Part shown: piece by piece, positions 1 to 2,697 of the stretch
How the letters are laid out: the number at the start of each line of letters is the position of its first letter
Numbering within the stretch: the first letter of the stretch is position 1
NCBI GenBank assembly: GCA_938015525.1
Contig: CALLPC010000007.1
Span: 62,001-126,000 of the forward strand
Direction: 5' to 3'
Source of the DNA: an uncultured Dehalococcoidia bacterium
GTDB lineage: Bacteria > Chloroflexota > Dehalococcoidia > Tepidiformales > Tepidiformaceae
DNA: 64,000 bases
Notes under the pieces: generated by a model
What the model was told of the DNA's origin: nothing
Database searches by the model: none
The model's input: the letters and a program-made list of their open reading frames with translations, nothing else
Program-made: the position numbers and the translations under genes

Positions 1-859
1 CCAGCTGGTAGCTGCCGGCAATAGTGGCGGGGGAAGAGGCCAAGAACTCGTACGAAAACCCGAAGGTCACACGGTCGCTCAGCCGCAGGAAGACTGGCTC
101 CCCGGTGCTGGCCCGCCCGGCGTCGTAGATACTGCCATCGGCAGCGGCGGCGTCGTAGGAAAACTCCCCGCGCTGGGTGTACTCCCATTCGCCCGGAACG
201 GCTTTTTCGAGACCGCGGCTGAAGCCGGCCCATGCGAGAGCGGCGAAACCAACGGCAACGGCGAGCAACAGCACGACGGTGTCCTGCCAGTTGCGATAGA
301 TGGTAGCCATGGGGTGTCCTCCTCCCCGTTGGTGATTGCGCCCGTCGGGACGGGGAGCCGTGGAGCGGGTCCCCGCGGCGCCCCCCAGGAGCCCGGCGAA
401 TGCAACGAACAGCACCAGACCTCCCCAAACGGGGTCCCGAAGGTGCCAGAGCAGCCGGCCGGCGCCGGGCACCCTGAACCAAAGCCGGCCGACGACCTCG
501 CCGCGCCCCGGCCGGTACGAATCGTCGAAATCGTTGTGGTCGCCTCGCAGCGTGTACCGGCCGCTATTCTCCTCGATGATGCGGTGGATGACGTAGCCGA
601 TGTCAGGGTGCCGGTAGGTCACGACGTCGCCGGGCCGATAATCGTCCGCCGGCCGTACGAGGGCGAGGTCGCCCCGTTTCATCCCGGGCTCCATCGAGTT
701 ACCGTTCACGATGACATAGGCGGTCTGTCCGCCCAGCTGTTGAGGAGCGAACAGGATCCATCCGGCGCCCGCCAGCAGGAACAGGAGCGCCGCAGCGGCG
801 GCATGGGGCAGCCGGCGGCAGGACCGGCGGGCAAAGGTCGCTGCAGCGCTCCCGCTCAT
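1..859 (-). CDS. Signal peptidase I (SipW/archaeal/ER type) fused in frame to a DUF5305-like membrane protein; truncated at the window edge
   Basis: Manual minus-strand translation from ATG at 859: MSGSAAATFARRSC...VNGNSMEPGMKRGDLALVRP...YRHPDIGYVIHRIIEE (Ser in NSMEP; His instead of Lys in the general-base region). It continues without a stop through 310 (MATIYRNWQDTVVLLLAVAVGFAALAWAGF...GEWEYTQRGEFSYDAAA) to the window start. Not in the ORF track because it runs off the edge. Confidence 0.75.
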   Translation of the reverse strand, partial: MSGSAAATFARRSCRRLPHAAAAALLFLLAGAGWILFAPQQLGGQTAYVIVNGNSMEPGMKRGDLALVRPADDYRPGDVVTYRHPDIGYVIHRIIEENSGRYTLRGDHNDFDDSYRPGRGEVVGRLWFRVPGAGRLLWHLRDPVWGGLVLFVAFAGLLGGAAGTRSTAPRPDGRNHQRGGGHPMATIYRNWQDTVVLLLAVAVGFAALAWAGFSRGLEKAVPGEWEYTQRGEFSYDAAAADGSIYDAGRASTGEPVFLRLSDRVTFGFSYEFLASSPATIAGSYQL

Positions 860-874
860 CGGTCCCTCCGTAGC

Positions 875-1246
875 CTACTGCGCCGCCACGACGCGCAGCC
901 CCAGGATGGACGAGACCGCGGCCGTCGAGGTGCAGGTGATGCTCGTGCCGGTACTGCATGGCGCCGTCCAGGTGACGCCGCCATCCGTGGAGACGCGAAC
1001 CGTGCCACCGCTCGGCACGGCGGGCGAAATGGTGAAGGTAATGGAACTGAGCTGCTGCGGGTTCACCGCATCGAGGTTGTAGTGGACGTTGGTGATGGTG
1101 TACCCGCTGACGGCAGCCGAGCCGTCGCCCGCCCGGCTCGCGGGAACCGTGTTGGCGGCAGCATACCCGTACACCGCCGCGCCGCTGACTGCCAGGAGGC
1201 CCGCCAGGAGGAGGCGGCGGAACGGAAGGGACAGGAGCCCGCGCAT
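875..1246 (-). CDS. Secreted SipW-dependent/TasA-like small protein, paralog 2
   Basis: MRGLLSLPFRRLLLAGLLAVSGAAVYGYAAANTVPASRAGDGSAAVSGYTITNVHYNLD...LRVVAAQ; N-terminal hydrophobic signal; strong similarity to the neighbouring ORF. Confidence 0.75.
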   Translation of the reverse strand: MRGLLSLPFRRLLLAGLLAVSGAAVYGYAAANTVPASRAGDGSAAVSGYTITNVHYNLDAVNPQQLSSITFTISPAVPSGGTVRVSTDGGVTWTAPCSTGTSITCTSTAAVSSILGLRVVAAQ

Positions 1247-1349: not shown

Positions 1350-1730
1350 TTACTGGGCGGCGACGACCCGCAGGCTGGTGAACGCGGCGCCGATTGACTG
1401 CGGCGTCGAGAACGTGCACGTGATGGTCGACCCCGTGGAGCAGGCGTTCGACCAGGTCGTGCCGCCATCGAACGAGACGTGCGCCGTGCCGCCTGCCGGC
1501 AGCGCCGGCGAGATGTCGAAAGTGACCGAGTTCGCGGTCGCCGGGTTGGTCGGGTTCAGGTTGTAGTGGACGTTGGAAATCGTGTAGCCGGAGACGGTGT
1601 TGGTGCCATCGCCGGCGTTGGTGGCCGGCACGGTGTTCGTGGCGGCGAAACCAAGCGCCGAAACGGCGACGATGGAGAAGACCGCGATGGCGGCCAGCCG
1701 ACGCGGGCTCCTCAGGGAACGAAAGACCAT
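1350..1730 (-). CDS. Secreted SipW-dependent/TasA-like small protein, paralog 1
   Basis: MVFRSLRSPRRLAAIAVFSIVAVSALGFAATNTVPATNAGDGTNTVSGYTISNVHYNLNPTNPATANSVTF...LRVVAAQ; GGAGGAG Shine-Dalgarno upstream of ATG 1730. Confidence 0.75.
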   Translation of the reverse strand: MVFRSLRSPRRLAAIAVFSIVAVSALGFAATNTVPATNAGDGTNTVSGYTISNVHYNLNPTNPATANSVTFDISPALPAGGTAHVSFDGGTTWSNACSTGSTITCTFSTPQSIGAAFTSLRVVAAQ

Positions 1731-2400: not shown

Positions 2401-2697
2401 ATGTTCGGTTCGCTCGGAGCCCCGGAGCTCATCATCATCGCCCTCGTCATCATCCTCATCTTCGGTGTTGGCAAGATTTCCGGGCTTGGGCGGGAGCTCG
2501 GCACTTCAATCAAGGAGTTCCGCCGCGCGGTGAAGGACGAGGACGAGGCGGCCCGCCAGCAAGCGGCAGCGCCGCCGCCTCAGCACCAGCAAACGGTGCA
2601 GGCACCGCCCCCGCCGCCCGTCGCTGCCCAGCCGCCCGCTGCCGCGCCACCCCCGAACAGCGACCCGAACAAGCCGAATACGCCGAACGTCTTCTGA
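2401..2697 (+). CDS. tatA: Sec-independent (Tat) translocase TatA/E component
   Basis: MFGSLGAPELIIIALVIILIFGVGKISGLGRELGTSIKEFRRAVKDE: typical TatA N-terminal TM plus amphipathic helix. Confidence 0.9.
   Translation: MFGSLGAPELIIIALVIILIFGVGKISGLGRELGTSIKEFRRAVKDEDEAARQQAAAPPPQHQQTVQAPPPPPVAAQPPAAAPPPNSDPNKPNTPNVF

Follow-up and report, generated by a model that had tools for sequence, protein, structure and literature searches.

Signal peptidases of the archaeal type occur in bacteria as dedicated enzymes beside the ordinary signal peptidases. In Bacillus subtilis, for example, SipW is encoded in one operon together with its small set of secreted beta-protein substrates, TapA-TasA (PMC9674648). 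In the eukaryotic signal peptidase complex, the catalytic subunit is SEC11A or SEC11C (7p2p, 7p2q). Haloarchaeal plasmids carry genes annotated as signal peptidase I next to genes for DUF5305.

The locus described here, from an uncultured bacterium of the Tepidiforma group (Dehalococcoidia), encodes an archaeal-type signal peptidase and a DUF5305 domain in one frame. As a kind of system, an archaeal-type signal peptidase dedicated to substrates from its own operon is already known from SipW. SipW is not fused to DUF5305, unlike the peptidase here, and the small secreted proteins of this operon gave no match to a TasA or SipW-substrate family of Pfam or NCBIfam and are characterized by the motif A-[AT]-N-T-V-P. 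The new elements are the scale on which the fusion occurs, a dedicated operon marked by a motif, and a probable dual product.

The Fused Gene

The window, the whole stretch of 64,000 nucleotides analyzed, corresponds to bases 62001–126000 of contig C7 of the 2.49 Mb genome (G000). As its placement on the contig is known, the frame cut at the window edge could be completed leftward. A preliminary description of the window, made from the sequence only, reported an uninterrupted minus-strand frame from ATG 859. The extension of the contig confirmed it: the frame encodes 528 residues without an internal stop and ends with a stop codon at C7 61273–61275, and within the window ATG 859 and ATG 310 belong to a single open frame up to the edge. 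The profile search proposed there, when performed on the full frame, matched both the S26B-type and the DUF5305 profiles. The features are listed in Table 1.

Table 1. Features of the fused gene and the two genes upstream of it, in window coordinates.
Feature	Position	Strand	Remarks
Fused gene, 5' part (residues 1–286 of 528)	1..859	-	Runs on left of the window to C7:61273
Moiety predicted as archaeal/ER-type signal peptidase, from N-terminal TM helix and peptidase domain to second TM helix and Arg-rich linker	311..859	-	TIGR02228; phmmer and Foldseek matches to SEC11; modelled for the T. flava homologue
Predicted catalytic Ser55 codon (NSMEPGM)	695..697	-	Invariant in A1 and A2; aligns with SEC11
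Predicted catalytic His92 codon (VIHRI)	584..586	-	Invariant in A1 and A2; aligns with SEC11
Internal Shine-Dalgarno GGGGAGGAGG, 7 bases 5' of ATG 310	318..327	-	Stronger than synonymous expectation, here and in relatives
Internal in-frame ATG	308..310	-	Corresponds to the codon at which DUF5305 starts in G009 and G018, relatives with two genes
N-terminal part of the DUF5305 moiety (TM helix, first part of beta-rich ectodomain)	2..310	-	PF17231 on the full protein, models; remainder left of the window
Small secreted protein, AAANTVPAS after the signal helix; likely substrate	875..1246	-	
Second small secreted protein, AATNTVPAT; likely substrate	1350..1730	-	

The Peptidase Half

By its sequence, the N-terminal half is an archaeal/ER-type signal peptidase (S26B, Ser-His), and cleavage activity is predicted for it. 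Among the NCBIfam profiles, TIGR02228 (archaeal signal peptidase I) matches the 528-residue protein with 67.5–70.6 bits against a cut-off of 51.85, while the score for the bacterial SPase I model TIGR02227 is under its cut-off. The Peptidase_S24 match covers residues 43–115. In the phmmer alignment, Ser55 and His92 (in the motifs NSMEPGM and YVIHRI) correspond to the Ser and His of human SEC11A/C, and both are invariant in the alignments A1 and A2, which include 14 and 25 relatives, respectively. The His in VIHRI replaces the catalytic Lys of bacterial SPase I, which places the protein in S26B. SEC11A/C is the best match of the peptidase half in both sequence and fold; for the DUF5305 ectodomain, no SPC accessory subunit of the eukaryotic complex turned up in the top 50 fold matches.

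The preliminary description had assigned this half to the Ser-His peptidases of the SipW, archaeal, and ER type. The archaeal and ER part of this assignment holds, but the protein is not a member of the SipW equivalog NF046067, reaching 30–33 bits against a cut-off of 190. Ordinary bacterial SPase I genes are present elsewhere in the genome, and the TIGR02228 search of the genome recognized the fusion as its sole archaeal-type signal peptidase.

The DUF5305 Half and Structure Models

The resemblance of the C-terminal half to DUF5305, noticed in the preliminary description, is supported by Pfam. PF17231 scores 30.3 bits with the full protein and 32.1 bits with the C-terminal part, above the gathering cut-off of 29; the match spans residues 310–432, and it is close to the cut-off here and scores higher in relatives. 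No mention of DUF5305 was found in the collection of papers searched.

Modelling of the homologue from T. flava (mean pLDDT 77, pTM 0.46) gave the following order: a TM helix, the peptidase beta domain, a TM helix, a disordered linker (pLDDT <50), a TM helix, a beta-rich ectodomain, a TM helix, and, in the cytoplasm, a small alpha/beta domain. With the peptidase domain outside, the linker would be inside, and the DUF5305 ectodomain would be outside on the face of the active site. At this pTM, the model gave no reliable placement of DUF5305 relative to the peptidase. The ectodomain modelled alone reached a pLDDT of 90. The fold search with it revealed no close solved relative and only generic beta-sandwich matches, such as ApaG (TM 0.39), and therefore the role of DUF5305 is not readable from structure.

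Distribution of the Fusion in Chloroflexota and Haloarchaea

The same fusion is present in each of the five further genomes searched from this genus (six of six with this one), including the complete chromosome of T. flava, with 57–78% identity in the DUF5305 half. It was also found in most matches from the family, with members of three further genera among them, in G011, and in G057 of another family. A scan of GTDB representatives, which relied on peptidase patterns, revealed 28 loci; every one is fused and belongs to Chloroflexota, and their GC ranges from 42% to 71%. A survey of fused versus adjacent pairs, as the preliminary description had suggested, was performed with the DUF5305 profile (PF17231) alone on 399 Chloroflexota genomes. 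Among its 30 loci, 23 are fused, five are directly preceded by a separate peptidase gene, one (L061) has no peptidase gene within 1.5 kb of DUF5305, and one (L079), located in a carB-like frame, is spurious and was left out. In Chloroflexota, DUF5305 loci are commonly fused, and the fusion is no oddity of this genome.

A frameshift between the two halves, which the preliminary description had named as a refutation if present in the reads, is rejected, and so is an assembly artefact, as the frame is fused in many independent assemblies, the complete T. flava chromosome among them. A chance open frame is rejected because both halves are conserved across the phylum.

The tblastn search of plasmids with the DUF5305 of this genome gave no match, and a haloarchaeal DUF5305 was used as the query instead. 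In haloarchaeal plasmids, a signal peptidase gene precedes the DUF5305 gene in four of five cases, either directly or one gene apart, and no signal peptidase gene was found near the DUF5305 gene of Haloferax larsenii. Upstream hypothetical proteins in three of the plasmids were considered as DUF5305 and rejected by Pfam. The haloarchaeal pair represents the same two protein families with the peptidase gene first, as here, but as two separate genes, sometimes with one gene in between. These results agree with the statement in the preliminary description that DUF5305 is mainly a neighbour of archaeal signal peptidases. They also support its proposal that DUF5305 is a dedicated partner, with the fusion as Rosetta-stone evidence: fused and adjacent loci in Chloroflexota and the haloarchaeal pairs keep the same order.

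Two arrangements outside the usual one were observed. In the Dehalococcoidia loci L052–L055, a tandem DUF5305-like protein directly follows a separate signal peptidase gene; the genomes are outside the 29 with a small secreted protein (see below), and thus their substrates must differ. In L061, the C-terminal part of DUF5305 leads into a further stretch that presumably resembles the N-terminal domain of the type II secretion ATPase.

Domains Added to the Fusion

In some relatives the polypeptide continues beyond DUF5305. It runs on into an EAL domain in L037, L038, and L041, and by reading in L039 and L062; it is followed by an HD (HD_5) domain in L036 (3989–6115) and by an FGE-sulfatase (formylglycine-generating) domain in L034 (1048–3612). 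The EAL- and HD-type extensions hint at a link of the system to c-di-GMP control in those lineages.

These EAL and HD domains, together with the small cytoplasmic alpha/beta domain of the model, would fit a different and unlikely role of DUF5305: that it is mainly a sensor or output module, whose ectodomain senses a surface signal and whose cytoplasmic end relays it, for example, to c-di-GMP turnover. The peptidase would then be what is regulated. Most members, including the one in this genome, are without such output domains, and the tight link is to the secreted proteins of the operon.

A Probable Internal Start at ATG 310

The Shine-Dalgarno before ATG 310 is perfect. The relatives G009 and G018 encode the two proteins in separate genes; there, this ATG and the stop of the peptidase gene overlap in ATGA, and a similar Shine-Dalgarno precedes it. 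In 14 fused members of the family, the ATG and the Shine-Dalgarno are kept while the linker varies in residues and, by whole codons, in length; the ATG follows the active-site motif by 130, 131, 135, or 138 codons, always in register. Of the 32 Gly codons within seven codons upstream of the ATG, 27 are GGA or GGG, compared with 36% elsewhere in the same genes. The anti-Shine-Dalgarno binding at the site exceeds that of synonymous recodings in eight lineages, two of which are not significant alone, with a combined P of 7e-6 that is optimistic because the lineages share ancestry. In the control, 1% of 86 ATGs were below 0.05.

As the Shine-Dalgarno is kept beyond synonymous expectation, free DUF5305 is probably also made from the internal start in Tepidiforma and its family, and the fusion is probably not the sole product. 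A C-terminal product translated in frame from inside the gene, as proposed here, would be similar to Cas11b, which is made from cas8b; the internal start of Cas11b was shown experimentally (PMC11899642), while that of DUF5305 is predicted from a sequence signature.

The maintained Shine-Dalgarno and the separate frames of G009 and G018 could also be taken to mean that there are two genes in this family, with DUF5305 starting at ATG 310, the missing peptidase stop incidental, and little or no fused protein that matters. We regard this as quite unlikely, because the 14 family members keep an open frame without loss of register despite four different distances, and because most fusions outside the family are without such a start at the junction, at GC as low as 42%. 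In the tree, moreover, the two split forms are placed beside the fused clade of the family, inside a larger fused group. Of the two signs that the preliminary description had named against the fusion at this position, a strong Shine-Dalgarno at ATG 310 is indeed present; the frame to 859 is nonetheless open and conserved.

The Operon and the Candidate Substrates

Two small (~120-residue) secreted proteins are encoded upstream of the fusion on the same strand. An RTX-like secreted protein is encoded downstream, outside the window, and its GTG overlaps the stop of the fusion. All three proteins have A-[AT]-N-T-V-P directly behind the signal helix. At the DNA level, the A[AT]NTVP pattern has three matches in the 2.49 Mb genome, all at most 2.5 kb from the fusion gene, and the reversed pattern used as a control has none. 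In 61 genomes, 22 of 44 motif matches adjoin DUF5305 genes, and the others look like background. A TatA/TatE-like export gene, recognized by reading, is located divergently at 2401–2697 (+) of the window, ~0.7 kb past the 5' end of the operon.

The order of the operon is conserved: one to three secreted proteins of ~120 residues, the fusion, and usually an RTX-like protein. It recurs in Dehalococcoidia, Anaerolineales, Caldilineaceae, and Levilinea, and the motif is common to the small proteins and the RTX-like protein across the phylum. Small-protein genes were found in 29 of the 399 genomes, and all 29 also carry the peptidase and DUF5305, either fused or, in G018, split; 27 of 28 measured pairs of small protein and peptidase/DUF5305 lie within about 2 kb.

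The small proteins share invariant cysteines and a conserved N-terminal stretch. By analogy, one may guess that this stretch could act as a donor strand as in TasA. An assignment of the small proteins to TasA/camelysin or another SipW-dependent substrate family was rejected, as none of 24 members matched such a family in Pfam or NCBIfam, and no PDB match was obtained.

S26 peptidases often process many exported proteins, but it is very improbable that this one is a general signal peptidase fused by happenstance to a membrane domain and without dedicated substrates, given the ordinary SPase I genes in the genome, the confinement of the motif to this operon, and the lack of the system in most Chloroflexota genomes searched.

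Proposed Working of the System

The conserved operon, the restriction of the motif, and the co-occurrence in 29 of 29 genomes point to a dedicated processing system with DUF5305 as a partner. It is likely that the locus encodes a SipW-like system for the secreted proteins of its own operon, in which DUF5305 is a built-in partner coupling cleavage to surface assembly, and in which the internal start adds free DUF5305. The protein would have four TM helices, with the second TM helix of the peptidase leading through a short cytoplasmic Arg-rich linker to DUF5305, which would consist of a TM helix, an outward beta-rich ectodomain, a further TM helix, and a small alpha/beta domain in the cytoplasm. 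The peptidase would be dedicated to the two small proteins upstream and the RTX-like protein downstream, and may cut at the A-[AT]-N-T-V-P motif. DUF5305, located beside the active site on the same membrane face, may receive or present substrates or assembly intermediates; held in this position, it would couple cutting to surface assembly. The internal ribosome-binding site in Tepidiforma and its family would add free DUF5305.

It is tentatively suggested that DUF5305 may belong, as a genuine subunit, to a bacterial/archaeal signal peptidase complex of two parts, which passes newly cleaved ANTVP proteins on to surface assembly. In the relatives of Tepidiforma, one gene would supply DUF5305 in two doses, within the fusion and as the free subunit, the latter from the conserved internal start.

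A concrete and testable role for DUF5305, a domain of unknown function, is suggested by the fusion, by the matching order of genes in haloarchaea, and by the strict co-occurrence with a single family of putative substrates. With a recognition motif of its own, the operon represents an apparently undescribed export system of Chloroflexota, which in some relatives is joined to c-di-GMP-type domains. If the internal start is used, as is likely, this would be an unusual membrane enzyme whose fused partner is also produced alone.
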